From Eubacterium limosum (GTDB lineage Bacteria; Bacillota; Clostridia; Eubacteriales; Eubacteriaceae), in contig NZ_CP019962.1 in assembly GCF_000807675.2 (NCBI RefSeq), positions 3,224,001 to 3,288,000 on the forward strand: a DNA stretch of 64,000 bases, written 5' to 3'. Of the stretch, positions 14,820 to 27,693 are shown in pieces. Position 1 is the stretch's first letter; every line of letters starts with the position of its first letter. The notes beneath the pieces were generated by a model. It did not search any database and was not told the origin of the DNA. It saw only the letters and a list, made by a program, of their open reading frames with translations. The translations under genes were made by a program, and so were the position numbers.

Positions 14820-15587
14820 ATGCTGCATGTAGAACGCAGAAAAGAAATACTCAATAAAATCCTGAAAGAGGGTTCTGTAAAGGCCGACGCGCTGGCAAAA
14901 AAATACGAGGTGGGCGTGCCAACCATCCGGAGGGATTTAAAATACCTGGCAGAGGAATACGGCATTGAGCTGACCTACGGAGGCGCCTATGCCAAGGAAA
15001 GCCTGGCAAGCCAGACCACTGTGGAGATGAACATTGCCCAGAAGAAGCTGCAAAACCTGGATGAAAAACGGATCATTGCGCAAAAGGCGGCAAGGCTGAT
15101 TAAGGATGGGGACACCATCGCGCTGAACTCTGGAAGCACAGTTGAGCTGGTTCTTGATTATCTGGAGGATATGAAAAGCCTGAACGTCATAACGCTGTCG
15201 CTGAATGTGGCCCTCAAGGCGTCCACTGTAAAGGGTGTGAATGTCTTTATGCCCGGCGGGCGGCTGCGCAGCATTTCAGGCGCTTTTTACGGAAAGGACG
15301 CGGATGATTTCCTCAGGAAGTTTAACATTGACAAAGCCTTTATGGGGGTTTTGGCTGTTTCCATTCCCAAGGGCGTGACCCACAGCTCGCTGGAGGAGAT
15401 CGAGGTTAACCAGACGCTGGCCGAAATCAGCCAGAAATGCTATCTCATGGCCGACTATACCAAGTTCGATAAAATATCCCTGGCCAAGATGTTTGACCTG
15501 AATATTTTTGAGGCCTTTGTTGTCGATGGTAAAGAGCCGGAAATTTACAGGGAATACGCCCGGAACAACGGCATTGACATCCTGTGA
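14820..15587 (+). CDS. DeoR-family transcriptional regulator
   Basis: The 255-residue protein has an N-terminal DeoR winged helix (VERRKEILNKILKEGSVKADALAKKYEVGVPTIRRDL; the helix-turn-helix is at about 19-40). A sugar-phosphate-sensing domain follows (RIIAQKAARLIKDGDTIALNSGSTVELVLDYL). It stands directly before the GlpP and methyltransferase operon. DeoR proteins usually sense a phosphorylated sugar or polyol, so the product of the neighbouring FGGY or glycerol kinase is a sensible candidate ligand; that is inference. Confidence 0.88.
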   Translation: MLHVERRKEILNKILKEGSVKADALAKKYEVGVPTIRRDLKYLAEEYGIELTYGGAYAKESLASQTTVEMNIAQKKLQNLDEKRIIAQKAARLIKDGDTIALNSGSTVELVLDYLEDMKSLNVITLSLNVALKASTVKGVNVFMPGGRLRSISGAFYGKDADDFLRKFNIDKAFMGVLAVSIPKGVTHSSLEEIEVNQTLAEISQKCYLMADYTKFDKISLAKMFDLNIFEAFVVDGKEPEIYREYARNNGIDIL

Positions 15588-15622: not shown

Positions 15623-15651
15623 TTGACATCGATTTACAAACATGCTATTAT
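15623..15651 (+). promoter_or_regulatory. SigA promoter of the GlpP/methyltransferase operon
   Basis: TTGACA (15623-15628), a 17-base spacer and TATTAT (15646-15651). The transcript would start near 15658 and carry the leader terminator at 15687-15740. Confidence 0.8.
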
Positions 15652-15686
15652 GAAATAAATTAATACGTATTGGTTTGAGATTGTAG

Positions 15687-15741
15687 AAACCGCAATAAAT
15701 AAATGGGAGTGTTTTCCTGTTTGTTTATCGCGGTTTTTTTC
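15687..15741 (+). terminator. Leader terminator, probable GlpP antitermination site
   Basis: AAACCGCAATAAATAAA (15687-15703) pairs with TTTGTTTATCGCGGTTT (15720-15736), a 17-bp stem with one mismatch and one G-U pair, followed by a T-run. It lies between the promoter and glpP, so most transcripts should stop here unless GlpP, loaded with glycerol 3-phosphate, prevents it. That mechanism is known for the Bacillus glpD leader and is inferred here from position. Confidence 0.75.
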
Positions 15742-15772
15742 TATCTTGAATCATTGGAAAGAGGCCACTCCA

Positions 15773-16342
15773 ATGATCACTAAGGAACAAATGAAGACTT
15801 TTAAGGCATACCCGGTTATCGCTGCTGTGCGGACGCCGGAGAATTTCAGACAGGCTCTCGACTCAAAGGTTCGGGTGCTGTTTATGGTAGGAGGCGATTA
15901 TTTTAAGGCAGAAAACCTGATTAAGGAATTTAAAGAACAAAATGGACTGGTATTCCTGCACATGGATCTGATTGAGGGCATTGGACGGGATATTGGCGGC
16001 ATCCGGCACGCGGTGGAGCGCACTGGGATTGATGGCGTCATATCGACCAAAAGCCATATTCTAAAGCTGGCGGCTAAGGAAAATCTAATCACAGTGCACC
16101 GGATTTTCCTCATGGACAATCAGGCGCTGGAAAGCGGTATCAACCTGTTTAAGGCGTCGAAGCCAGATATTATCGAGCTGACGCCAGGGCTGATCCCGCG
16201 GATCGTGCGAAAGGTGAGCAATGAATTTGAACAGCCTGTGATCACAAGCGGGCTGGTTTCAAAGCCGAGTGATGTAAAAACAATGATACAGGCAGGCGCC
16301 ATGAACATTGTGTGCAGCTGCGAGGCGCTTTGGAATTTGTAA
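15773..16342 (+). CDS. glpP: Glycerol-3-phosphate-responsive antiterminator GlpP
   Basis: This 189-residue TIM-barrel-like protein matches GlpP: PVIAAVRTPENF at the N-terminus, VLFMVGGD, VFLHMDLIEGIGRD, GIDGVISTKSHILKLAAKEN, VHRIFLMDNQAL, PDIIELTPGLIPRIV and PVITSGLVSKPSDVKTMIQAGAM. GlpP binds glycerol 3-phosphate and then mRNA leaders to prevent termination. An upstream TTG at 15746 is in frame, but the ATG at 15773 has AAAGAGG about 8 bases before it. It is the first gene of the operon with the methyltransferase, kinase and corrinoid protein, and a terminator in its own leader suggests autoregulation. Confidence 0.92.
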   Translation: MITKEQMKTFKAYPVIAAVRTPENFRQALDSKVRVLFMVGGDYFKAENLIKEFKEQNGLVFLHMDLIEGIGRDIGGIRHAVERTGIDGVISTKSHILKLAAKENLITVHRIFLMDNQALESGINLFKASKPDIIELTPGLIPRIVRKVSNEFEQPVITSGLVSKPSDVKTMIQAGAMNIVCSCEALWNL

Positions 16343-16358
16343 AAAAGGAGAGACAAGA

Positions 16359-17507
16359 ATGAATTCGAGAGAACGTGTGATGGCAGCGGCCAGCCACCAG
16401 GAGCCCGACCGGGTGCCTGTGGATATGGTCCTGACCATTGATGTATACAGAGATATGAAAAGGTTGCTGAAGATGGACCATCTTCCAGACACCCCCCGGA
16501 TGGGCCACTGGACCGATGTACAGATGCCGCTGGAGATGATCCAGGCGCTGGATCTGGACATGTACTACATTTCGCCGAGGTCGGCAAAATCAGCCCATTC
16601 CAGACAGTTTGAGGACGGCAGCTTTACCGATGAATGGGGCTGCTACTGGAAAAAGACCATGATCGACGGCGGACATTTTTACTTTGAACTGCAGAACCCG
16701 CCGCTGGCAGACGCCACCATCGAAGATCTGGAGAACTATGAATGGCCGGATCCCAGCGACCCCAAACGGTTTGAGGGCCTGCGTGAGGAAATGCAGATGG
16801 TCCGGGACAAAAGTGATCTGGCCATTCTGGCAAAATTTGCCGGCGCGGTTTTTGAGGTAGCTACCTATATGCGCGGCCATGAACGCTGGTACCGCGATCT
16901 GGTCAACAATCAGGAATTTGCCCACGCGCTGCTTGACAAGGTCTGTAAAATACAGAAGGAAATCGACCGTGTCTGTATCGACGCTGTCGGCGAATACGTG
17001 GATATTCTGCGCCTGAGCGGCGAAGATCTGGGCACACAGGACAGCCCGCTCATTTCACCGAGAACCTTCCGGAAAGTAGTAAAACCACATCTTGAGGAGC
17101 TCTGGGTAAGCGCGAAGACAGAGCTGCTTAAGAAAAATCCGCAGGGTAAGGCCATGCTGCACAGCTGCGGCTCCATCCGCCCCTTTATCCCGGATCTTAT
17201 CGACTGCGGCATCGACATTCTGGACCCGGTACAGCCAGGCGCCAACCATATGAACCGTTACGAGCTGAAACAGGAATTCGGCGATAAAATCGTCTTTCAC
17301 GGCAATATTGATATTCAGAAGGTGCTGCCCTTTGGCACAAAGGATGAAATCACCGAGGAAGTGCGCGACGCCATTAAGGCGCTGGCCCCGGGCGGCGGCT
17401 TTCTGCTGTCACCGGCCCACAATGTTCAGAGCGATGTGAGCGCGGAAAATCTGGTGCACATGATCGAATGTGCCCACGAATTCGGCGTCTATCCCATTCA
17501 ATTGTAA
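16359..17507 (+). CDS. Uroporphyrinogen-decarboxylase-family corrinoid methyltransferase
   Basis: The 382-residue protein belongs to the URO-D superfamily, whose non-heme members (MtaA, MtbA, CmuA N-terminus) move methyl groups to or from corrinoid proteins or coenzyme M/tetrahydrofolate through a zinc site. It starts NSRERVMAAASHQEPDRVPVD, a typical family N-terminus. It contains the probable zinc-binding MLHSCGSI (His-x-Cys) and ILDPVQPGANHMN, and a C-terminal cysteine in HMIECAHEFG may complete the site. The ATG at 16359 follows AAAGGAG by 8 bases. A kinase and a corrinoid protein gene follow within the operon, so this is probably the component that loads or unloads that corrinoid. The methyl donor is unknown. 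Confidence 0.8.
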   Translation: MNSRERVMAAASHQEPDRVPVDMVLTIDVYRDMKRLLKMDHLPDTPRMGHWTDVQMPLEMIQALDLDMYYISPRSAKSAHSRQFEDGSFTDEWGCYWKKTMIDGGHFYFELQNPPLADATIEDLENYEWPDPSDPKRFEGLREEMQMVRDKSDLAILAKFAGAVFEVATYMRGHERWYRDLVNNQEFAHALLDKVCKIQKEIDRVCIDAVGEYVDILRLSGEDLGTQDSPLISPRTFRKVVKPHLEELWVSAKTELLKKNPQGKAMLHSCGSIRPFIPDLIDCGIDILDPVQPGANHMNRYELKQEFGDKIVFHGNIDIQKVLPFGTKDEITEEVRDAIKALAPGGGFLLSPAHNVQSDVSAENLVHMIECAHEFGVYPIQL

Positions 17508-17540
17508 GCGAATAAAAAATAATTTTTGGAGAGAGTAGAG

Positions 17541-19085
17541 ATGAAAAATTATATTAGTGGAATCGATATCGGAACAACCGGCGTAAAAGTAATTATTTTT
17601 GATATGGAGGGCGCCACTGTCGGCAGTGCCTACCGTGAGTATCCCTGTACCTTTCCGCAGTCGGGATGGGTAGAACAGGACGGAGAGATGACCTGGCAGC
17701 AGACCTGTGAGGCCACCCGGGAAGCCATCGCAAAAGCAGGCGTCGATCCTGCGGAAATCCGCTCCATTGGCCTTTCCACCCAGCGCTGTACCTTTACCCC
17801 GGTGGATCAAGCCGGCATGTCGCTGCGGTCTGCCATCTCATGGCAGGACAGCCGTTCCTTTGAGGAATGTGAGGAGATCAGCCGTCTGGTGGGGGCGGAG
17901 CGCTATTATGAGATCACCGGCCTGCCTGTAGGCACGACCTGGTCGGTCAGCAAGATCATGTGGATCAAGAAACACCAGCCGGAAATTTACGCGAAAACCT
18001 ACAAGTTTGCCATGGATCAGGAGCGTATTTTAAACAAGCTCGGCGCAGAGGGCTACTTTGAGGACTGGTCTAACGGCTCCCTCCAGGGGCTGATGGACAT
18101 CAAGGCATTTGAGTGGAGCGATGAGCTCGTAGGCGCTCTGGAGCTTGACAAATCCAAGCTGCCCGACCTGGTGCCATCAGGCAAGGTCGTTGGGAAAATA
18201 TCCAAAGAGAGCAGTGCGCTCACAGGCTTTGCCGAGGGAACCCTTTTGGTTTCGGGCGGCGGCGACCAGCAATGCGCAGGTATTGGTGCAGGCGCTGTGA
18301 AAAAAGGAACCATTGAGGTGACTATCGGCACCGCAGGCGTCACCCTGGCCTATATGGACGAGCCGATTTACGACGATAGTATGCGTCTGCCATGCTCGGC
18401 CCATACAGTAGCGGGCAAGTGGGAAACAGAAGGCCTGCAGAACGCGGCTGGAAGCTCCCTGAAATGGTACCGGAATGAATTTGCCGTACCAGAGATTGAA
18501 AAGGCAAAAGCACTGGGAATCGACCCCTACGACCTGATCAATGAACAGGTAGAGGGCATACGTCCCGGCAGCGACGGGCTCATCTGTATCCCGTATTTTG
18601 CCAGTTCAGCCGCGCCGAACTGGGACCCATTTGCGCGGGGAACCTTTATCGGCCTGACCCTGGGCCACAGCCGGCAGGCCATGGCACGGGCCATTATGGA
18701 GGGCGTTACCTACGAAACCCGTGAAATCATCGACCAGATGATCACAAACGGCGTCGAGGTTGATGAGATTGTATTGAGTGGCGGCGCCGCAAAATCCGAT
18801 GTCTGGAATCATATCCAGGCAGATATTTACGGCAAGACCTGCAGTATTCTGGCTGTAGAGGAGGCCACAGCACTGGGTGCGGCGATTCTGGCAGCTCTTG
18901 GAGCAGAGCTCTACGCAAACGTAGGCGAAGCCGTTGCCCACATGGTGAAGATCGTGGCGGTCTGTGAGCCGGATATGCAGCGGCACGCGCTGTATAATGA
19001 ATATTTTGAAATATACAAGGATGCCTACCAGGCACTGAGAAAGGCAGACGTCTATGAGCGCCTGGTGAAGCTGGCATTAAAATGA
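17541..19085 (+). CDS. FGGY-family carbohydrate kinase, substrate unknown
   Basis: The 514-residue kinase has both FHAN/ASKHA halves: N-terminal SGIDIGTTGVKVIIFDMEG (phosphate 1 loop), SIGLSTQRCTFTPVDQAG and ISWQDSR, and C-terminal VEVTIGTAGVTLAY, ASSAAPNWDPFARGTFIGL and IVLSGGAAKSDVWNHIQADIYG. It is closer to xylulokinase-like members than to the glycerol kinase at 20240. It lies between the URO-D methyltransferase and the corrinoid protein, an unusual place for a sugar or polyol kinase. A reasonable idea is phosphorylation of the polyol freed by demethylation. The substrate cannot be read from sequence. Confidence 0.85.
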   Translation: MKNYISGIDIGTTGVKVIIFDMEGATVGSAYREYPCTFPQSGWVEQDGEMTWQQTCEATREAIAKAGVDPAEIRSIGLSTQRCTFTPVDQAGMSLRSAISWQDSRSFEECEEISRLVGAERYYEITGLPVGTTWSVSKIMWIKKHQPEIYAKTYKFAMDQERILNKLGAEGYFEDWSNGSLQGLMDIKAFEWSDELVGALELDKSKLPDLVPSGKVVGKISKESSALTGFAEGTLLVSGGGDQQCAGIGAGAVKKGTIEVTIGTAGVTLAYMDEPIYDDSMRLPCSAHTVAGKWETEGLQNAAGSSLKWYRNEFAVPEIEKAKALGIDPYDLINEQVEGIRPGSDGLICIPYFASSAAPNWDPFARGTFIGLTLGHSRQAMARAIMEGVTYETREIIDQMITNGVEVDEIVLSGGAAKSDVWNHIQADIYGKTCSILAVEEATALGAAILAALGAELYANVGEAVAHMVKIVAVCEPDMQRHALYNEYFEIYKDAYQALRKADVYERLVKLALK

Positions 19086-19104
19086 GAAAACAGAGGAGAC
19101 AAGA

Positions 19105-19737
19105 ATGAAGATACTGGATCAGATTAAAAATGCGGTTTATGAAGGATTAGAGGATGAGACACCTTCCATGGTGCAGGCGGCAGTGGACAAGGGGACCAGT
19201 CCGCAGGCCATTCTGGATACCATGATGGAAGCGATGGAGATGGTGGGAGAGGAGTTTAAAAACGAGGAGATCTATATACCGGAGGTGCTGTGCTCATGCT
19301 ACGCCATGCAGAATGGGTCAGAGGTGCTGAAGCCTCTGCTTTTAGAAAACCAGCAGACCGCGACCGGAATCATTGTGCTGGGAAGCGTAAAGGGAGACAT
19401 GCACGATATTGGTAAAAACCTGGTAAAAATGATGTTTGAGGGACGGGGCTTTAAAGTCGTGGATATCGGCATTGATGTGCCCGAGGAGCGTTTTGTGGAG
19501 GCCGCTGTCAAAGAGAAGGCCGATATTGTGGCCTGCTCTGCGCTGCTGACCACCACCATGCCCGAAATCCCCAAAATTGTTAAGGCTTTTGAGGATGCGG
19601 GTGTCCGGGAACAGTTTAAGATTATGATTGGCGGAGCGCCCATTACGCAGGATTTCTGCGATAAAACGGGCTGTGACGCCTTTGCCAAGGACGCAGGAAG
19701 CGCCGCTGAGGCTGCCGTACAGATCTGCCGGAATTAA
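19105..19737 (+). CDS. Corrinoid (cobalamin-binding) methyl-carrier protein, MtaC/MttC-like
   Basis: The 210-residue protein has an N-terminal four-helix cap domain (about 1-85) and a C-terminal B12-binding Rossmann domain. The cobalt-ligating histidine is in GDMHDIGKNLVKMMFEGRGF (the DxHxxG motif, about residue 97), followed by VVDIGIDVPEERFV, ACSALLTTTMPEI and MIGGAPITQDFCDKTGCDAFAKDA. Such proteins carry the methyl group between substrate-specific and tetrahydrofolate-directed methyltransferases. It is the last gene of the operon that begins with glpP. No reductive activase (RACo type) is in the window. Confidence 0.93.
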   Translation: MKILDQIKNAVYEGLEDETPSMVQAAVDKGTSPQAILDTMMEAMEMVGEEFKNEEIYIPEVLCSCYAMQNGSEVLKPLLLENQQTATGIIVLGSVKGDMHDIGKNLVKMMFEGRGFKVVDIGIDVPEERFVEAAVKEKADIVACSALLTTTMPEIPKIVKAFEDAGVREQFKIMIGGAPITQDFCDKTGCDAFAKDAGSAAEAAVQICRN

Positions 19738-19742
19738 CAGGA

Positions 19743-20002
19743 TTTAAGCACACTGTGGAGACCAGTGTGTTTATCCAGTCAAAGAAGTGGCGTGGTTTGA
19801 GACTGCGCCTTTTATCCAGATAAGAAAAAAGGTCCTGGCGCTGTGAATAACGGCCGGAAATTGTGCCATTTTACTGCAACAGCCGGACACTGGTGAGATA
19901 AAGCATTAACTTTAGTGAAGAAGATATCTGGGTGAGGGTAATGCCCGCAGAACCCTTTTTTCTTCCTTAGGTAAAGGGCTTCGTCTCTCAAAGTTTTGAC
20001 AT
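19743..20002. other. Structured intergenic segment between duplicated hairpins
   Basis: A 27-base sequence beginning TTTAAGCACACTGTGGAGAC occurs at 19743-19769 and again at 20003-20029, an offset of 260 bases. The first copy lacks a T-run and the second is a terminator. The intervening 230 bases have short stems (such as GGCG...CGCC at about 19789-19808 and GGGT...ACCC at about 19930-19955, the latter followed by TTTTTT) but no supported gene. It may be a small RNA, an antiterminator region or the result of a duplication and insertion. Confidence 0.5.
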
Positions 20003-20005
20003 TTT

Positions 20006-20037
20006 AAGCACACTGTGGAGACCAGTGTGCTTTTTTA
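20006..20037 (+). terminator. Terminator of the methyltransferase operon
   Basis: AAGCACACTG (20006-20015) pairs with CAGTGTGCTT (20022-20031) across a short loop, followed by TTTTT. A copy of the hairpin without the T-run lies 260 bases upstream. Confidence 0.8.
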
Positions 20038-20066: not shown

Positions 20067-20093
20067 TTGACAAACCATCAAAAAGCATATAAT
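20067..20093 (+). promoter_or_regulatory. Promoter of the glycerol kinase operon
   Basis: TTGACA (20067-20072) with TATAAT at 20088-20093 (15-base spacing) or TAATAT at 20090-20095 (17-base spacing). The leader to the glpK start is about 140 bases; no clear terminator hairpin is seen in it. Confidence 0.65.
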
Positions 20094-20239
20094 ATTAACA
20101 TAAAGTCAATACAAAATACATAAAAAGTGAATATGTAAAGCATTTACAGGCGAAGGAGGAAAGGAGGTTTCTGACAGCAAAGCTGAGCATAAAGAAGACA
20201 ACTGAATAATCATTTTTTGAGGAGTAAAGGAGTAAAAAA

Positions 20240-21733
20240 ATGAAAAACTATGTTTTAGTCATTGACGAAGGAACAACTGGTACAAGAGCGCTGATTTTTG
20301 ACAAGGAATTTAATATTGTATCCCAGTGCTATGAAGAATTCACACAGTACACACCGAGTGAGGACAAGGTTGAGCACGACGCCATGGAAATCTACGCCAA
20401 GAGCGTGGGCGTGTGCCGTGAAGCCATTGAAAAAGCGAAAATCGCCAGCAGCGACATTGCCGCCATCGGCATTACCAACCAGCGGGCAACCTGTCTGGTC
20501 TGGGATAAGAACACCGGCGTGCCGCTGTACAACGCCATTGTCTGGCAGGATAACCGCACCGCGGCATTGTGTCAGGAAATCAATGACAGTGAATGGGGAG
20601 AAAAAGCGCGCAAGGCCACCGGCTGGACGGTAGCGCCGGTTTATTCCTCCCTGATGCTGCACTGGTATCTTGAAAATGTGCCGGAGATTAAAGAAAAGAT
20701 TGAATCCGGCGAAGCGCTTTTCGGCACCATTGACACCTGGCTGATCTGGAAGCTGACCGGCGGAAAGAGCCATGTGGTCAGCTATTCTAACGCTTCTGTC
20801 ATGGGCAGCCTGGATTTAAGCACAGGGGAATGGTACACCGAATTCTTAGACTATCTGGGGATTTCAACCGATATTTATCCCGAAATCGTCAACGACTCCG
20901 GCAACTACGGCACCACAGACCCGGATATTTTCGGGGCAGAGATTCCCATCTGCGGCGCCATTGCCGACCAGCACGCCGCGCTTTATGCCCAGGGCTGTCG
21001 TTCCAAGGGAACCTGTAAAATCACCAACGGTACAGGCTCATTCTTAGATATCAACATCGGCGACGAATGTGTTGTGTCCGATCAGGGCTTAAACACTGTT
21101 ATTGCCTGGAAGATCGGGGATGAAATCAATTATGCTCTGGAAGGCTTTGAAGCCGTTACCGGCTCAGCTGTTCAGTGGCTGCGTGACGGGCTTCAGGTCA
21201 TTGGCAAATCCAGTGAATCAGAACCGCTGGCACGTTCAGTTGAGGACTCTAACGGAGTGTACTTTGTACCTGCGCTGGCAGGGCTCAGCGCACCTTATCA
21301 CGATCCCTATGCCAGAGGCACCATTTTTGGCATCAGCCGCGGCACTACTAAAGCCCACATTGTACGGGCAACGCTGGAAGGGGTCGCCTACCGCTTAAAG
21401 GACATTCTGGATGTCGTCGAAAAGGAATCTGGTGTAAAAATGACCGATATCCGTATTGACGGCGGGGCATCGATGAACGATTTGCTGGCACAGCTTATGG
21501 CAGATATGCTCGACGCCCGTGTCGACCGGCCGTTATCCGTCGAAGCCACCAGTCTTGGCGCAGCCGAAATGGCCGGCCTGGCAGCCGGCCTCTGGACCGA
21601 AGCCGATTTTGACAAGTCTCTTGAAATCGACAAATCCTTTGAACCGGCCATCACACCGGAAAAACGCGAAGAGCTGTACGCAGGCTGGCGTGAAGCCATC
21701 GAGCGCTCCGTCGGCTGGCGTAAGCAGGCATAA
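20240..21733 (+). CDS. glpK: Glycerol kinase
   Basis: The 497-residue FGGY kinase has the glycerol kinase hallmarks VLVIDEGTTGTRALIFD, IGITNQRATCLVWDKNTG, YNAIVWQDNRT (glycerol contact), FGTIDTWLIWKLTGG, KITNGTGSFLDINIGD and FVPALAGLSAPYHDPYARG. It phosphorylates glycerol to glycerol 3-phosphate in the cytoplasm, which is also the signal for GlpP. AAAGGAG precedes the ATG. It leads the operon with the FAD dehydrogenases that oxidise the product. Length is as expected for the family. Confidence 0.93.
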   Translation: MKNYVLVIDEGTTGTRALIFDKEFNIVSQCYEEFTQYTPSEDKVEHDAMEIYAKSVGVCREAIEKAKIASSDIAAIGITNQRATCLVWDKNTGVPLYNAIVWQDNRTAALCQEINDSEWGEKARKATGWTVAPVYSSLMLHWYLENVPEIKEKIESGEALFGTIDTWLIWKLTGGKSHVVSYSNASVMGSLDLSTGEWYTEFLDYLGISTDIYPEIVNDSGNYGTTDPDIFGAEIPICGAIADQHAALYAQGCRSKGTCKITNGTGSFLDINIGDECVVSDQGLNTVIAWKIGDEINYALEGFEAVTGSAVQWLRDGLQVIGKSSESEPLARSVEDSNGVYFVPALAGLSAPYHDPYARGTIFGISRGTTKAHIVRATLEGVAYRLKDILDVVEKESGVKMTDIRIDGGASMNDLLAQLMADMLDARVDRPLSVEATSLGAAEMAGLAAGLWTEADFDKSLEIDKSFEPAITPEKREELYAGWREAIERSVGWRKQA

Positions 21734-21814: not shown

Positions 21815-23536
21815 GTGTCCGATTGTGTTGCACAATTTTATCAGAAACTAGAGGACGATCCGTCATTAAAACATTACAAAATTGAAGCCAGCGCCGATGC
21901 GCGCGGGGTGATCACCCTGACTGGCGAAGTGGATGTCTGGCAGCATGTGGTTGACATCGGCCACGCGGCTGGAAAAAGCGGCGTAAAAGGGGTCGTCAAC
22001 AGGCTGACCGTCAAGGGGGCAGAGACAGCCCGAAGAGACCGGGCAGAAGAAGTGAAAAAAGCAGAGGCCGTCGGTGTGATCGACAAAGCCGATATTGTGG
22101 TCATTGGTGCGGGGGTAACCGGCAGCGGTATTGCGAGAACGCTGTCGAAATACAATAAACGCATTATCGTGGTAGAAAAAGCCTCGGATGTGTCTGAAGG
22201 GACCTCCAAGTCAAACAACGGGATGATCCACTCAGGCTACGACTCAAAGGCAGGCTCTCTGAAGGCCCTGCTCAATGTAAAGGGCAATGCCATGTACACA
22301 CAGTGGCAGGAAGAACTTCATTTTAAAATGAACCGCTGCGGCTCCTTTGTCGTAGGCTTTGACGCATCAGACGACGCCTATCTGGAGCAGTACTACGAGC
22401 TGGGAAAAAAGAACGGTGTGCCTGGCATTGCCATTTTAAGCGGCGACGAGGCCAGAGCCATTGACCCGGCAGTCAATCATGACGTGGTAAAGGCACTATG
22501 GACCCCATCGGCGGCCTATGTTGAGCCTTACGAGGTCGTTGAAGCCCTAATGGAAAACGCCATTGACAATGGGGCAGAGCTTATGCTGAATACAGAGGTA
22601 TTGGGCTTTACCAGACAAGGCGCCCATTTAAACGGCGTGGTCACCGATAAGGGAATCATCGAAGCCGACTGTGTCATCAACGCCGCAGGCCTGTATGCCG
22701 ACGAAATCGCAGAGCTGGCAGGCGACCGGTTTTACACCATTCATCCGCGCCGGGGCACACTGGTCATTCTGGATAAAAAGATTGGCAAAACCACCAACAA
22801 ATGCTTTATCGGCACACCGCCTAAAAACTTTACCAAGGGCGGCGGCCCGACCCAGACACCCGAGGGCAACCCACTGTGGGGCCCCTCAGCCATCGAGGTG
22901 CCAGAAAAAGATGATTTGGCAGTGGACGAAGAGGATGTACGCTTTGTTATGGAAAAGGGCAAGCACCTGACCGAGGGCGCCTCCGAAAGAGATATTATCA
23001 CCTATTTCAGCGGCTGCCGGGCATCGAACTATATTGAGGATTTTATCATCGAAGCGTCTGAAGTGCTGGACAACTTTATTCATGCGGCAGGCATCCAGTC
23101 TCCCGGGCTGGCGTCCTCACCGGCCATCGCTGAACGGGTCGAGGGGATTTACACAACGCTTCACCCCGAAGCCGCTGTGCGTGAGGATTATGATCCCATC
23201 CGTCCTGAGCACAAGGCTTTCAGAGATTGTACCTTGGAAGAAAAGGAAGCGCTCATCGCCAAAAATCCGCTGTATGGGCATGTGATCTGCCGCTGTGAAA
23301 CCATTACCGAGGCCGAGATTGTGGACGCCATACACGGTAAAATACCGGCCACAACCGTGGATGCGGTGAAGCGACGTACCCGGGCAGGCATGGGGCGCTG
23401 CCAGGGAGGCTTCTGCGGCCCGAGGGTTGTGGAAATCATTGCCAGGGAACTGGGGATCGCGCCCGAGGAAGTTACCAAGCGTGGCGCGGGCTCAGAAATG
23501 CTGACCACAGCATCCAGAAAGGGGGAGGAAGAATGA
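21815..23536 (+). CDS. glpA: GlpA-like glycerol-3-phosphate dehydrogenase with N-terminal BON domain and C-terminal [2Fe-2S] domain
   Basis: This 573-residue protein has three parts. Residues about 8-65 look like a BON domain (ALTGEVDVWQHVVDIGHAAGKS-like region with VKGVVNRL). Residues about 92-480 are a DAO-type FAD oxidoreductase beginning ADIVVIGAGVTGSGIA. The C-terminus is a Bfd-type [2Fe-2S] domain with CRCETITEAEI (about 492) and RCQGGFCG (about 530). It probably oxidises glycerol 3-phosphate to dihydroxyacetone phosphate and passes electrons on. The GTG start follows GGAGAG. Classical GlpA lacks the N-terminal BON part. The downstream flavoprotein overlaps its stop by four bases. Confidence 0.88.
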   Translation: MSDCVAQFYQKLEDDPSLKHYKIEASADARGVITLTGEVDVWQHVVDIGHAAGKSGVKGVVNRLTVKGAETARRDRAEEVKKAEAVGVIDKADIVVIGAGVTGSGIARTLSKYNKRIIVVEKASDVSEGTSKSNNGMIHSGYDSKAGSLKALLNVKGNAMYTQWQEELHFKMNRCGSFVVGFDASDDAYLEQYYELGKKNGVPGIAILSGDEARAIDPAVNHDVVKALWTPSAAYVEPYEVVEALMENAIDNGAELMLNTEVLGFTRQGAHLNGVVTDKGIIEADCVINAAGLYADEIAELAGDRFYTIHPRRGTLVILDKKIGKTTNKCFIGTPPKNFTKGGGPTQTPEGNPLWGPSAIEVPEKDDLAVDEEDVRFVMEKGKHLTEGASERDIITYFSGCRASNYIEDFIIEASEVLDNFIHAAGIQSPGLASSPAIAERVEGIYTTLHPEAAVREDYDPIRPEHKAFRDCTLEEKEALIAKNPLYGHVICRCETITEAEIVDAIHGKIPATTVDAVKRRTRAGMGRCQGGFCGPRVVEIIARELGIAPEEVTKRGAGSEMLTTASRKGEEE

Positions 23537-24777
23537 ATCGGATACAGACAGACTGCGCCATTATCGGCGGCGGCCCGGCAGGGCTGGCAGCAGCCGTAGA
23601 AGCGCATAAGGCAGGACTTGACACTTTGATTATTGAACGGGACCTTTCCCTTGGCGGTATTCTGCAGCAGTGTATTCACGATGGCTTTGGCCTGCTGCGG
23701 TTTAAACGCCGCATGACAGGAGGCCAGTATGCCCAGGCTTTTATCGATGAGGTAGAGGACGAGGGGATTGAAGTCAAGCTGGACACCATGGTGCTGGAAA
23801 TCCGGCCGGATAAGACCATTTATGCGGTCAACGAAAAGGATGGCCTTCTTGAGATCAAGGCCAAATCTGTTATTCTGGCCATGGGCTGCCGTGAACGCAC
23901 GCGCTCACAGGTCATGATTTACGGCACGCGTCCCGCTGGGGTACTGACTGCCGGAGCGGTTCAGCGCTACATAAATATGGAGGGCTATCTGCCGGGTAAG
24001 AAGGCTGTAATTTTAGGCTCAGGCGACATTGGCCTTATCATGGCAAGGCGTATGACGCTTGAGGATATCGAGGTGAAGGGCGTCTATGAAATCATGCATA
24101 CCGAGGGCGGACTGACCCGAAATATTGTCCAGTGCCTTGAGGATTACAACATACCGCTGCATCTGGGCACAACCGTGACCAAGATCCACGGCAGGGACCG
24201 GATCGAGGGCGTTACTGTCGCAAAGGTAGACGAACACCTTAAGCCCATCGCAGGAACCGAAGAATATATTGACTGCGATCTTCTGGTGCTTTCAGTCGGC
24301 CTTATCCCTGAAAATGAGCTCAGTGAACAGCTGAATATTGAAATGGACCCGAGGACACGCGGTCCGGTGGTGGACGAGCGGATGATGACCTCCGTTCCCG
24401 GTGTCTTTGCGGCAGGCAATGTGGTTACAGTGTTTGACCTGGTGGACTATGTCTCCCAAACCGGAGAGATGGCGGCCCGCGGCGCAGTCCGCTACATAAA
24501 GGGTGAGAGCGGAGGTAATGAGTACCGTGCTGTGGAAGCCGGCGATAACATCAGTTTTGTGGTTCCCCAGAAAATAAGCGGGACAGCTGGAGAGGTTCCG
24601 GTCTTTATGCGGGTCAGAAAGCCTGACGAAAAGGTAAGGCTGGTATTTAGCCAGAATGGGCAGTCCCAAAAGCTGAAAAAACACGCGGTGGTCAAGCCGC
24701 CGGAAATGGTCTGTGAGGTCATTGACCTCGGCAAAACAACAGACGGCCCCATCTGTATCAGCGTGGCAAAGGAGTGA
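23533..24777 (+). CDS. FAD/NAD(P)-dependent oxidoreductase (GlpB/HcnB-like partner)
   Basis: The 414-residue flavoprotein carries an FAD motif at its start (CAIIGGGPAGLAAAVEAHKAG) and a second dinucleotide motif (AVILGSGDIGLIMARRM, about residue 158). MGCRERTRSQVMIYGTRPAGVLTAG is typical of the HcnB/sarcosine oxidase-alpha group that accompanies GlpA-like proteins. It probably links the [2Fe-2S] domain of the upstream subunit to NAD(P) or another carrier. ATGA overlap upstream and a 6-base gap to DUF1667 downstream show tight coupling. Confidence 0.85.
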   Translation: MNRIQTDCAIIGGGPAGLAAAVEAHKAGLDTLIIERDLSLGGILQQCIHDGFGLLRFKRRMTGGQYAQAFIDEVEDEGIEVKLDTMVLEIRPDKTIYAVNEKDGLLEIKAKSVILAMGCRERTRSQVMIYGTRPAGVLTAGAVQRYINMEGYLPGKKAVILGSGDIGLIMARRMTLEDIEVKGVYEIMHTEGGLTRNIVQCLEDYNIPLHLGTTVTKIHGRDRIEGVTVAKVDEHLKPIAGTEEYIDCDLLVLSVGLIPENELSEQLNIEMDPRTRGPVVDERMMTSVPGVFAAGNVVTVFDLVDYVSQTGEMAARGAVRYIKGESGGNEYRAVEAGDNISFVVPQKISGTAGEVPVFMRVRKPDEKVRLVFSQNGQSQKLKKHAVVKPPEMVCEVIDLGKTTDGPICISVAKE

Positions 24778-24783
24778 TGGAAA

Positions 24784-25149
24784 ATGGAAAAAAGAAATTA
24801 TACCTGCATTGTCTGCCCCAAAAGCTGCAAGGGTGAGCTGACCATCAAGGATGATGGTACCTTTGAAACCGCTGGCTTTGACTGCAATAACGGGAAAAAA
24901 TACGCGGTCAATGAGTATACCGATCCCAAACGGATGCTGACCACAACGGTTGCAATAGAGGACGGTATCTTTAACCTGCTGCCTGTGGTCAGCAGTGAAG
25001 AAGTCAGTAAAACGAAGCTCAGAGACTGCATCCATGCCCTTTACGGCATTGCAGTGAAAGCGCCGGTCCGGGCGGGCGATGTGGTGGTCTCGAATATTTT
25101 GGACACAGGTGTTGACATTATAGCGGCACGTGACATTAAAGCAAAGTAA
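24784..25149 (+). CDS. DUF1667 cysteine-rich protein
   Basis: The 121-residue protein begins with CIVCPKSC (residues 8-15) and has a further Cys at about 33, likely ligands for a metal or Fe-S cluster. The rest includes PVVSSEEVSKTKLRDCIHALYGI and VKAPVRAGDVVVSNILDTGVDIIA, diagnostic of DUF1667. This family regularly follows a GlpA-like and an HcnB-like gene and is thought to be an electron-transfer subunit; its biochemical role is not established. Confidence 0.88.
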   Translation: MEKRNYTCIVCPKSCKGELTIKDDGTFETAGFDCNNGKKYAVNEYTDPKRMLTTTVAIEDGIFNLLPVVSSEEVSKTKLRDCIHALYGIAVKAPVRAGDVVVSNILDTGVDIIAARDIKAK

Positions 25150-25159
25150 GGAGAATACA

Positions 25160-26569
25160 ATGAAAGAAAATATTGAAGGTTTTTTGAAAGCGGTTCAGGA
25201 AGAGCTGCCAGAGGTTACAGTGCTCCGGCGCGAGGAGGAACGCCTTATCTATGCCCATGGCTGTTATCCCAGAGAGTATAAATGGCTGCTTCAGGGGCCT
25301 TACAAGGTTCTGCCAGAAGCTATTCTCATGCCTGGAAGCACTGATGAGGTCAGCCGGATCATGGCACTCTCTCAGGAGTACAGTGTCGGCGTCATTCCTT
25401 TTGGCGGCGGCTCTGGCATTGTGGGCGGCAGTATTGCTGAAAACCATGAGGTCATGCTCGATATTAAAAATTTAAAGGAATTTGAAATTAACCCTGTCAA
25501 CTGCACTGCTGTGGGCGGCGCGGGCCTGACCGGGGCAGATTTTGAAAACATGCTGAACGAAGCAGGTTATACCTGCGGCCAGTACCCACAGTCTTTCCAG
25601 AGCGCCGTGCTGGGCGGCATGGTCGCCACGCGCGCCATAGGAACCTTCTCTACCAAATACGGTAAGATGGACGACATGGTTAACTCCCTTGAGGTGGTGC
25701 TGCCAAACGGACATGTGCTGAACACACACAAAACGCCGAAGGCATCAACCGGGCCAGAGCTGGACCAGCTGTTTTTGGGCAGCGAGGGTGTATACGGGAT
25801 TGTCACCAAGGTGGAAATGAAAATTTATCCAGTAGCCGAAAAACGCTATTTTGAAGCCTTTACCTTTAACCGTACCGAGGACGGTCTGGAAGCCATCCGC
25901 CAGTTTGTCCAGAACAATGTCCACCCGGCAGTGGTCCGTCTTTATGATGAAGAGGAAAGTGTTCCTAAAATGGAAAAATACGGCTTTGAAAAAGGCCACG
26001 TTTTTCTGGTCATCGGCTACGAAGGTCTGGAAAAGCAGGTGGATCTGGAACGGGAATACGTCCATCATTACTGTGCCTTAAATGGCGGTGTGCCTAAGGG
26101 GCCGAAGCCGGGCTATGACTGGTTCCACTCACGTTTTTCCACGAAAAAAATGCTGGATCACGACGCTATGAAGGGTGGCACAGCCGATGCCATCGAGGTG
26201 GCGGCACCCTGGGACTGCATTGCCAATGTGTGGCGTGAAATGCGCAAAGCCCTTGAGCCCATGTGCGAAAGCGTTGACTGCCACTTTTCACATGTATACC
26301 ATACTGGCGCCAGTGTTTATGTGATCTTCCACGCCCAGACCGGCGGTGACGATTACGACGGTGAAAAGCGCTATATGGAATGTCTGGACACCGCCATCCG
26401 TACCAGCCTTAAATACGGCGGCAACGTCTCACACCACCACGGCAGCGGCAAAGCCAAGGCTGAATATTTACCCCTGGAGCACGGTGAAGCAGGTATCGAG
26501 GTCATGCAGAAAATCAAGGACGCCCTTGACCCCAAGGGATTAGTGAACAAAGGAGTGCTGGGATTATGA
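25160..26569 (+). CDS. FAD-linked oxidase resembling alkyldihydroxyacetonephosphate synthase / GlcD
   Basis: The 469-residue VAO-family flavoprotein has PFGGGSGIVGGSIAE (FAD pyrophosphate loop, about 77-90) and MVATRAIGTFSTKYGKMDDMV. HFSHVYHTGASVYVIF and GGNVSHHHGSGKAK closely resemble the HFSHAY and SHHHG active-site segments of AGPS, which makes ether-linked glycerolipid precursors. Shorter GlcD/lactate-oxidase relatives share the FAD fold but not this histidine cluster so clearly. The ATG at 25160 follows AAGGAG; an upstream in-frame start overlaps DUF1667. A glycerol-phosphate-type substrate suits both the AGPS likeness and the operon. Confidence 0.8.
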   Translation: MKENIEGFLKAVQEELPEVTVLRREEERLIYAHGCYPREYKWLLQGPYKVLPEAILMPGSTDEVSRIMALSQEYSVGVIPFGGGSGIVGGSIAENHEVMLDIKNLKEFEINPVNCTAVGGAGLTGADFENMLNEAGYTCGQYPQSFQSAVLGGMVATRAIGTFSTKYGKMDDMVNSLEVVLPNGHVLNTHKTPKASTGPELDQLFLGSEGVYGIVTKVEMKIYPVAEKRYFEAFTFNRTEDGLEAIRQFVQNNVHPAVVRLYDEEESVPKMEKYGFEKGHVFLVIGYEGLEKQVDLEREYVHHYCALNGGVPKGPKPGYDWFHSRFSTKKMLDHDAMKGGTADAIEVAAPWDCIANVWREMRKALEPMCESVDCHFSHVYHTGASVYVIFHAQTGGDDYDGEKRYMECLDTAIRTSLKYGGNVSHHHGSGKAKAEYLPLEHGEAGIEVMQKIKDALDPKGLVNKGVLGL

Positions 26570-27693
26570 GAGAATTTACATTAGAACATTACGAAGACAA
26601 GCTGAACCACCAGGTGATCCATATGGACCAGGCTGTGTGCTATTGTCCGGAATTCCGGGCGAGCCATATGCTCCACGACTATCCCTCCCGCAGGCTTCAG
26701 CTGGCACGGGCGGTTTTCAAAGACGAAATGGCCCCCAATGACTACATCGCGGGGCTGGTATTCCAGAGTATCCTGTCACGCCAGGGAGAGCGCTGGCAGA
26801 ACTTTGGCGAAAACCCCGAGGATTTGACAGACGTCATGATCCTCAGCCGTGAGCTGATGTTAAAAAAGGGTTTTGGCACCCAAATCGCCGAATCGCTTAA
26901 AGATACCCTGAAGGCAGGCGGTGGACATATCCTGAAAACCGACGCAGAGGCACTCAGACAGTGGCAGGAGGCTGTCCCGGTGCTTGAGGGCAGCGGTAAT
27001 TTTCTCTTCCTGGACGACGCCACAGCCACCCTCGCCGCTGACAGCGCGTCTGGGCTGGGCCAGTGGTTTAAGGCGAGAGGCATTGCCTTTGAGCCGGAGA
27101 CTGCGCCGGTTTTTGCAGGCTGGGAATACTTTGCCTATGGTATGGTGGACGAGGGGATTAAATATCTGGAAGGCCTGGTCAGCGGGCTTCAGGAAAAGGG
27201 GATAGAAGTCGTATATACCCTTTCAGGCCAGACCACCTATCTGCTGACACAGTTTGCAGAAAAGCTGGGGATCAGCGTTCCCTTTGAGGTAGTTTACCTT
27301 CCTGACGAGCTGAAGCTGCTTAAAATCGAAGCGCCCTCTTACTTTTACGGCGGCAGCTTTAACTGCCGTTTCCTGAGAAACGGCCAGGCCCTCAATGCGC
27401 TTGCCATCAACAGCGACGAGACACCAATCGCCACCAGTATGGAATTTTTACCATTGCTGAAGGCAGATAAGCGCGTCAATGTTTTAAATATCTGGCAGAA
27501 ACCCCTTGGCGCAGAATACCACCTGATCGGTTTTGACGCGGAGATGGCAGCGCTTATTCAGAAAGATGCCCTCGCAGACATTGAAAAAGCCGGAGCAAAG
27601 CAGATTGTCGTCTTTGAGCCCTATGCCTATGCGGCGTTAAAGACAGCGATGCCTGACAAGACAGTCCTTTACTACCTTGAATGTTTACAATAA
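26566..27693 (+). CDS. GlpC/HdrB-like protein lacking cluster cysteines
   Basis: This 375-residue protein overlaps the upstream stop by four bases. Its second half can be laid over the CCG (HdrB/GlpC) domains: VFAGWEYFAYGMVDEGIKYL falls where PCCGxPxxxxG is expected, and VVYTLSGQTTYLL and VVFEPYAYAALK where VVTxCxxCxxxL is expected. The cysteines are replaced in each case. Only four cysteines exist (about residues 25, 27, 267 and 373), so the usual cubane or noncubane cluster probably cannot form. It may be a structural subunit of the flavoenzyme. The homology is my reading of the pattern; a profile search is needed to confirm it. Confidence 0.55.
   Translation: MREFTLEHYEDKLNHQVIHMDQAVCYCPEFRASHMLHDYPSRRLQLARAVFKDEMAPNDYIAGLVFQSILSRQGERWQNFGENPEDLTDVMILSRELMLKKGFGTQIAESLKDTLKAGGGHILKTDAEALRQWQEAVPVLEGSGNFLFLDDATATLAADSASGLGQWFKARGIAFEPETAPVFAGWEYFAYGMVDEGIKYLEGLVSGLQEKGIEVVYTLSGQTTYLLTQFAEKLGISVPFEVVYLPDELKLLKIEAPSYFYGGSFNCRFLRNGQALNALAINSDETPIATSMEFLPLLKADKRVNVLNIWQKPLGAEYHLIGFDAEMAALIQKDALADIEKAGAKQIVVFEPYAYAALKTAMPDKTVLYYLECLQ

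Follow-up and report, generated by a model that had tools for sequence, protein, structure and literature searches.

A corrinoid methyltransferase operon of Eubacterium limosum linked to a GlpK-type kinase without Glu84: possible part of an anaerobic glyceryl ether pathway

A stretch of 64,000 nucleotides of Eubacterium limosum (contig NZ_CP019962.1, positions 3,224,001 to 3,288,000; here called the window, in whose numbering all coordinates are given) contains an operon on the plus strand with the genes for a GlpP-type antiterminator, a corrinoid methyltransferase of the uroporphyrinogen decarboxylase (URO-D) superfamily (MTI), an FGGY kinase and a corrinoid protein (CP). It is followed by the gene of a GlpK-type kinase that has lost Glu84, a glycerol-binding residue of GlpK, and further downstream by a gene like that of alkyl-dihydroxyacetone-phosphate synthase (AGPS). 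The initial annotation of this DNA had not connected these two genes with the theme of the operon. Taken together, the genes suggest that a gut acetogen may use, without oxygen, glycerols that are methylated or carry another ether link. The reading that we tentatively favour, at somewhat less than an even chance, is that the operon takes off methyl groups as one arm of an island of genes for the anaerobic breakdown of glyceryl ethers.

The GlpK-type kinase (20240..21733, plus strand) scored 601.9 bits with the model NF000756 (cut-off 498) and 581.5 bits with TIGR01311, just under the cut-off of 590.35. It reads NQRAT where the solved glycerol kinase 3g25 reads NQRET. Arg83, Glu84, Tyr135, Asp245 and Phe270 of GlpK are described in a section of PMC3245297 as glycerol contacts and a specificity signature identical among GlpKs; there Glu84 bonds the glycerol hydroxyls, with which part of the Plasmodium structure paper (PMC2680290) agrees. 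At these five positions the window kinase has R-A-Y-D-F, so that four residues are kept and the glycerol kinase signature is incomplete. Ala takes the place of Glu84 in this protein and likewise in every one of the 16 further copies with 75% identity or more. When 24 kinases were aligned, 17 had R-A-Y-D-F, including those of G413 and G101, two genomes of another class, and the E. limosum paralogue at locus L180. One had R-S-Y-D-I, and residue 84 was Asn in two and Glu in four of the others; position 135 is assigned with less confidence in the distant paralogues. The four Glu84 kinases, three of them E. limosum paralogues, formed one clade in the tree of the 24 sequences (FastTree support 1.000).

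E. limosum has seven GlpK-type genes (at least 41% identity), three with and four without Glu84. Each of the three Glu84 copies has a glpP-like gene (23-34% identity) close by, and a glycerol operon with an antiterminator and a kinase is described for A. woodii in part of PMC10472528 (Awo_c12730-12770). Three of the four Glu84-less copies (window, L176 and L180) lie near an AGPS-like gene, and the fourth (L175, Asn84) lies near a glycyl-radical-type enzyme. Since Glu84 holds a free hydroxyl of glycerol, we infer from its loss that the kinase acts on an O-substituted glycerol. Judged by its sequence, the GlpK that is linked to MTI in different genomes differs from ordinary glycerol kinases.

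The linkage was followed in related genomes. Full-length relatives of MTI (75-98% identity) were found in 15 of 80 other genomes, together with one fragment, and each of the 16 genomes that carry MTI at full length also had the orthologue of the window glpK. Among the 81 genomes both genes occurred in 16, MTI alone in none, GlpK alone in one (an 80% complete draft) and neither in 64. These counts ignore the relatedness of the genomes, and because linked genes get lost together the genomes are not independent cases. The Acetobacterium-type genus (g3 of the genome searches) was split into 10 genomes with both genes and 9 with neither. In G031 both genes were fragments, and in G022 an MTI remnant was left and no such GlpK was found; MTI and GlpK were jointly lost here. 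These two genomes were kept out of the counts below, which refer to 10 intact Acetobacterium-type loci. The MTI and GlpK of G413, the corrinoid gene of G006 and the DeoR of G002 were located by tblastn.

The window and three sister genomes, which make up the E. limosum group, share the order deoR-glpP-MTI-FGGY-CP-glpK. E. barkeri and E. aggregans have glpP-MTI-FGGY-CP-MTII, where MTII is a pterin-binding methyltransferase, and on another contig deoR-glpK-glpO-FAD/NAD-DUF1667-AGPS-hyp375, with the DeoR orthologue adjoining glpK; both units persist despite their separation. MTI, CP and GlpK were side by side in all 10 intact Acetobacterium-type loci, ordered MTI-CP-MTII-glpK in six, one of which has another MTI-CP pair following glpK; the other four have glpK-MTI-CP. 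A DeoR orthologue (66-70%) was found upstream of MTI or glpK in nine of the 10 loci, whereas the contig of G039 ends first, and a DhaK gene was close by in six.

The initial annotation had taken the FGGY kinase embedded in the operon (17541..19085, plus strand; PF00370 209 bits, PF02782 125.9 bits) as the partner of MTI. Of the 16 genomes that have a full-length MTI orthologue, only six keep this kinase, and none of the 10 Acetobacterium-type loci has it. The genome comparison by which the annotation had proposed to judge the link thus went against the FGGY kinase, which is ruled out by synteny as the conserved partner, and in favour of the Glu84-less GlpK-type kinase (16 of 16 genomes). With the XylB model TIGR01312 the FGGY kinase scored 368.7 bits, below the cut-off of 380.25 for a xylulokinase. 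It has a Cys at the position of GlpK Glu84.

MTI (16359..17507, plus strand) scored 113 bits with PF01208 (cut-off 23.9) and 74.9 bits with TIGR01463, the MtaA/CmuA family, under the cut-off of 235.4. The residues H268, C270 and H354 were invariant in 11 aligned sequences. In MtaA the zinc ligands are a His-x-Cys motif and a third Cys. Compared with MtaA (4ay7), MTI keeps the His-x-Cys as H268 and C270, but the third Cys stands opposite a Gly, with the conserved H354 nearby, so the zinc site of MtaA type is incomplete. The related CdmB does not need zinc, according to a passage of PMC13222342. CP (19105..19737, plus strand) adjoins MTI and has both B12-binding domains (PF02310 96.2 bits, PF02607 56.6 bits), the motif DxHxxG as DMHDIG and a match of 172.9 bits to PDB 1y80. 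The domains PF01208, PF02607 and PF02310 bear out the earlier assignment to a URO-D-type methyltransferase with a corrinoid protein of the O-demethylase kind, which would receive the methyl group on its Co(I).

MTII was found in the operons of E. barkeri and E. aggregans, in six of the 10 Acetobacterium-type loci and in G413. No reductive activating enzyme was found among the operon genes, and the rest of the genome was not searched for one. The E. limosum genome has 28 URO-D matches, 25 of them over the cut-off.

The promoter, leader hairpin, glpP, URO-D gene, FGGY kinase and corrinoid gene were all located where the initial annotation had placed them, and the four plus-strand genes are separated by gaps of 16, 33 and 19 bp. 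Upstream lies a gene for a DeoR-family regulator, AgaR/GlpR-like (14820..15587, plus strand; PF00455, PF08220). The promoter (15623..15651, plus strand) is of the sigma-70 type with an extended -10 and reads TTGACA-17-TATTAT. It agrees with the consensus at 11 of 12 positions, which by itself is slight evidence, because the scan found 9 sites where 6.6 were expected. glpP (15773..16342, plus strand) encodes a protein of the glycerol-3-phosphate-responsive antiterminator family with the G3P_antiterm domain (PF04309, 174.7 bits) and is preceded by a leader terminator, as is expected for an antiterminator of this kind. This hairpin (15685..15738, plus strand; -27.1 kcal/mol, z -7.66) had none of 200 shuffles folding as well, and its 3' arm reaches a T7 tract; it was not among the sites given by the terminator scan. 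Directly before it is a conserved element (15658..15680, plus strand) with the 3' end GG(T/C)T(T/A)GAGA, which is possibly the target of GlpP.

Element and hairpin recurred in all six leaders compared, those of E. barkeri and E. aggregans included, where the stems have changed in sequence and retained their pairing. The leader is therefore more than a peculiarity of a single strain. Searched by pattern in 12 sources (the window and 11 loci), the element was matched in the window only; two further matches, both in L178, arose from a less strict part of the pattern and were without the leader element.

At the 3' end the initial annotation had claimed a single terminator. The hairpin is actually present twice, near 19746-19769 without a good T run and at 20006..20032 (plus strand) with one, the latter being the operon terminator. 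Between the copies is a dispersed repeat of about 220 bp (19778..20001, plus strand), which has at least 46 matches in the E. limosum genome, where 40 of the 75 candidates were scored, and 13-47 matches in three sister genomes, at times in tandem. Aligned and folded once, it gave no clear structure. In G001 (L058) the two hairpin copies flank a different insert. The distance from CP to glpK is 502 bp in the window, 531 bp in L058 and 243 bp in E. callanderi (L057) and L059. A promoter-like site with 10 of 12 matches precedes glpK (20067..20095, plus strand). An Rfam search at gathering thresholds found no RNA family in window positions 10000-32000.

Downstream of glpK are the plus-strand genes of a GlpO/GlpA-like FAD dehydrogenase with a BFD [2Fe-2S] domain (21815..23536; PF01266, PF04324), of an FAD/NAD-linked oxidoreductase (23533..24777) with thioredoxin-reductase-like matches, all below cut-off, and of a DUF1667 protein (24784..25149; PF07892). 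These are followed by the AGPS-like flavoenzyme (25130..26569, plus strand). Family models made it glycolate-oxidase-like, below cut-off. Its nearest solved structure was the AGPS 4bby with 181.3 bits, compared with 125.1 for D-lactate dehydrogenase, and it retains the SHHHG.GK motif and an arginine aligned to Arg419. By these features the protein is nearer to AGPS, an enzyme of the glycerol ether bond, than to glycolate oxidase; unlike AGPS, it is bacterial and is encoded in a catabolic-looking kinase/dehydrogenase operon. The last gene (26566..27693, plus strand) encodes a 375-aa protein with no Pfam match, which travels with the AGPS-like gene: relatives were found beside it in G012, G018 and G004 (52-77%) and in G101 (24%).

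Two more kinase-GlpO-AGPS-like clusters were seen in E. limosum, L176 at 3.89 Mb and L180 at 2.55 Mb, with Asn or Ala at position 84 of the GlpK copies and the HHHG motif in the flavoenzyme. In the Acetobacterium-type genomes G037 and G034 (loci L232 and L234) an AGPS-DUF1667 fusion was found beside genes which we take, as at L175, for those of glycyl-radical-type enzymes and activases.

More distant genomes were searched in a phylum sample of 398, of which 30 matched MTI at E 1e-60, the genome of the window included. From 18 of the 29 other genomes, 20 regions made up the distant set, which was recounted by tblastn at E 1e-10. G413 carries FTHFS-cyclodeaminase-FolD-MetV-MetF-MTII-GlpK-MTI-CP on one contig, with 49% identity to the window in MTI and 61% in GlpK; of FTHFS the C-terminal part is on the contig. 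No AGPS was found on this contig of 8.4 kb, and G413 is only 79% complete. The folate genes in this stretch make it likely that the methyl groups are delivered to the folate pathway. G101 has a contiguous DeoR-GlpO-FAD/NAD-DUF1667-AGPS-hyp375-GlpK(NQRAT). Corrinoid genes were found in five of the 20 regions (L125, L126, L127, L131 and L134). One of these, L126 of G160, has two MTI-CP pairs and MTII around a gene for an aquaporin-type (MIP) channel in two frames, and no kinase in the region.

A search in the class gave MTI matches in eight of 391 genomes, five of them already known. The weaker relatives in G653, G815 and G600 had no GlpK or corrinoid gene nearby; in G600 an FGGY kinase is about 6 kb away. 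Beside six still weaker relatives (26-29%, L089-L094) no kinase was found, and nothing at all was found at L095; in L089 a corrinoid gene is about 5 kb from the MTI relative.

In the pathway that we propose, O-methylated glycerol would be phosphorylated by the Glu84-less GlpK, and in Eubacterium the embedded FGGY kinase would perhaps also phosphorylate another isomer or a methylated polyol. MTI would then move the methyl group onto the Co(I) of CP, and MTII, presumably supplied in trans in E. limosum, would hand it on to tetrahydrofolate and so to the Wood-Ljungdahl pathway. The remaining glycerol 3-phosphate would be oxidised by the GlpO-like enzyme. It is also the presumed ligand of GlpP, which could respond to it here by allowing read-through of the leader terminator; phosphorylation before demethylation, the order that we infer, gives glycerol 3-phosphate directly and so fits the GlpP switch. 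Longer O-alkyl groups would be handled by the neighbouring GlpO/AGPS-like module, whose AGPS-like enzyme would run towards cleavage of the ether bond in O-alkyl-dihydroxyacetone phosphate. Because an AGPS match is missing from eight of the 10 Acetobacterium-type genomes that have an intact MTI-GlpK locus, the simplest candidate substrate is glycerol carrying a methyl ether. The earlier guess of a methylated glycerol gains some support from the conserved link to glycerol, but through the neighbouring GlpK and not through the embedded FGGY kinase. Likewise, the suggested feeding of methyl groups into the acetyl-CoA pathway agrees with the folate-pathway genes and MTII of relatives, but no MTII is present in the E. 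limosum operon. A wider scheme, possible though doubtful, is that an O-alkylglycerol kinase, the Glu84-less GlpK, feeds two interchangeable modules, one cleaving with the AGPS-like enzyme and the other bringing the methyl of phosphorylated O-methylglycerol by corrinoid methyltransferase into the Wood-Ljungdahl pathway.

Several observations weigh against the assignment to glyceryl ether catabolism. MTII, a usual but not strictly required member of such systems, is absent from the window operon, and no transporter is encoded in it. At E 1e-60, 16 of the 19 Acetobacterium-type genomes had no AGPS match. A Glu84-less GlpK was beside MTI in one of the 20 distant regions only (G413), and 15 of the 20 had no kinase match. 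At L129 there is a GlpK of the Glu84 type (39%), which adjoins a different URO-D gene at a distance of 6 kb. Among nine distant AGPS-like loci a GlpK with NQRAT was found in G101 only; two others have FGGY-type kinases (L253 and L256) and six none. Outside the family the links of GlpK to MTI and to AGPS are single cases. E. limosum SA11, a different strain, is reported in part of PMC4791908 not to grow on glycerol, ethylene glycol or 2-methoxyethanol. CdmB, a different gene of the UroD family, was inactive on methoxylated alcohols in the experiments described in a section of PMC13222342, where the single such alcohol tested was 1-methoxy-2-propanol. O-methylglycerols are scarcely reported in the literature searched, in which four papers were found.

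The methyl group could also belong to the R group of a larger glyceryl ether, such as a 1-O-(2-methoxyalkyl)glycerol or a methoxyaryl glyceryl ether, the corrinoid system taking the methyl while the kinase, GlpO and the AGPS-like enzyme free the glycerol part. Both modules adjoin in E. limosum, 1-O-(2-methoxyalkyl)glycerols are reported from milk in the title of a work cited in PMC5923388, and other UroD-family methyltransferases demethylate methoxylated aromatics (part of PMC13222342). This is unlikely in view of the many Acetobacterium-type genomes without an AGPS match, in which the methyl ether alone seems to be enough; only G037 and G039 of the 10 with an intact locus have one, and none was seen on the G413 contig. 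A methylated sugar or longer polyol processed by the FGGY kinase, as in the broader form of the initial proposal, with GlpK for general glycerol use, would agree with the best score of that kinase, which was with XylB, and with URO-D relatives (35-38%) beside FGGY kinases in four of the 20 distant regions (L129, L133, L135 and L136). No corrinoid match was found near the pair in any of these four, which counts against the sugar substrate as it does against the glyceryl ether. We regard the sugar or polyol as rather unlikely, since the FGGY kinase is missing from all 10 Acetobacterium-type loci where GlpK is constant, and the operon has no sugar isomerase or sugar transporter.

The methyl donor might be unrelated to glycerol, for example a methoxylated aromatic or a haloalkane, with GlpP and the kinases coupling expression to glycerol as co-substrate or electron sink. 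The UroD family does span aromatic O-demethylases and the chloromethane enzyme CdmB, as laid out in part of PMC13222342, and the many URO-D matches in the genome would suit such a role. Yet the linked kinase appears to be no ordinary glycerol kinase and recurs with MTI in another class (G413), which makes this explanation quite improbable. That the modules were shuffled into a chance neighbourhood without metabolic coupling is very improbable: the gene order does differ from genus to genus, with the units held apart in E. barkeri and E. aggregans, but MTI and GlpK were jointly present in 16 of 16 genomes, decayed jointly and recur together in G413. We keep the removal of methyl groups from glyceryl ethers as the tentatively favoured function.

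The UroD-type systems described in the cited part of PMC13222342 serve aromatic demethylation or the use of chloromethane, and clades with unassigned substrates are marked among the methyltransferases there. Like the O-demethylases MtvB, OdmB, VdmB and MtoB, the window system has a URO-D MTI, a separate CP, MTII in relatives and an acetogen as host; it differs, in a comparison by description and not by sequence, in being tied to GlpP, DeoR and polyol kinases. The chloromethane dehalogenase CdmBCA of Acetobacterium dehalogenans belongs to the same superfamily and has the MTI-CP-MTII order that is found in six of the 10 Acetobacterium-type loci (a section of PMC13222342). An identity of MTI with CdmB was rejected, as the termini that we read from the published cloning primers by translation differ from the A. 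dehalogenans orthologue (L068). The window kinase is homologous to glycerol kinase GlpK over its whole length, and differs from it in the exchange of Glu84 for Ala.

Ether lipids and alkylglycerols are widespread, and alkylglycerol monooxygenase (AGMO) uses O2. Part of PMC7911779 names AGMO as the only enzyme known to degrade alkylglycerols. Like AGMO, which is tetrahydrobiopterin-dependent, the proposed island would break down alkylglycerols. In the open-licence literature no paper was found that joins glycerol kinase, corrinoid protein and uroporphyrinogen decarboxylase, and no anaerobic enzymes were found described for bacterial alkylglycerol ether cleavage. If the reading is true, an anaerobic alkylglycerol route, found in a gut acetogen that can be cultured, would close a gap beside AGMO, and the UroD methyltransferases would gain a non-aromatic substrate of the glycerol type. 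A GlpK without Glu84 may then serve as a residue-level marker for seeking the ether pathway in other genomes.

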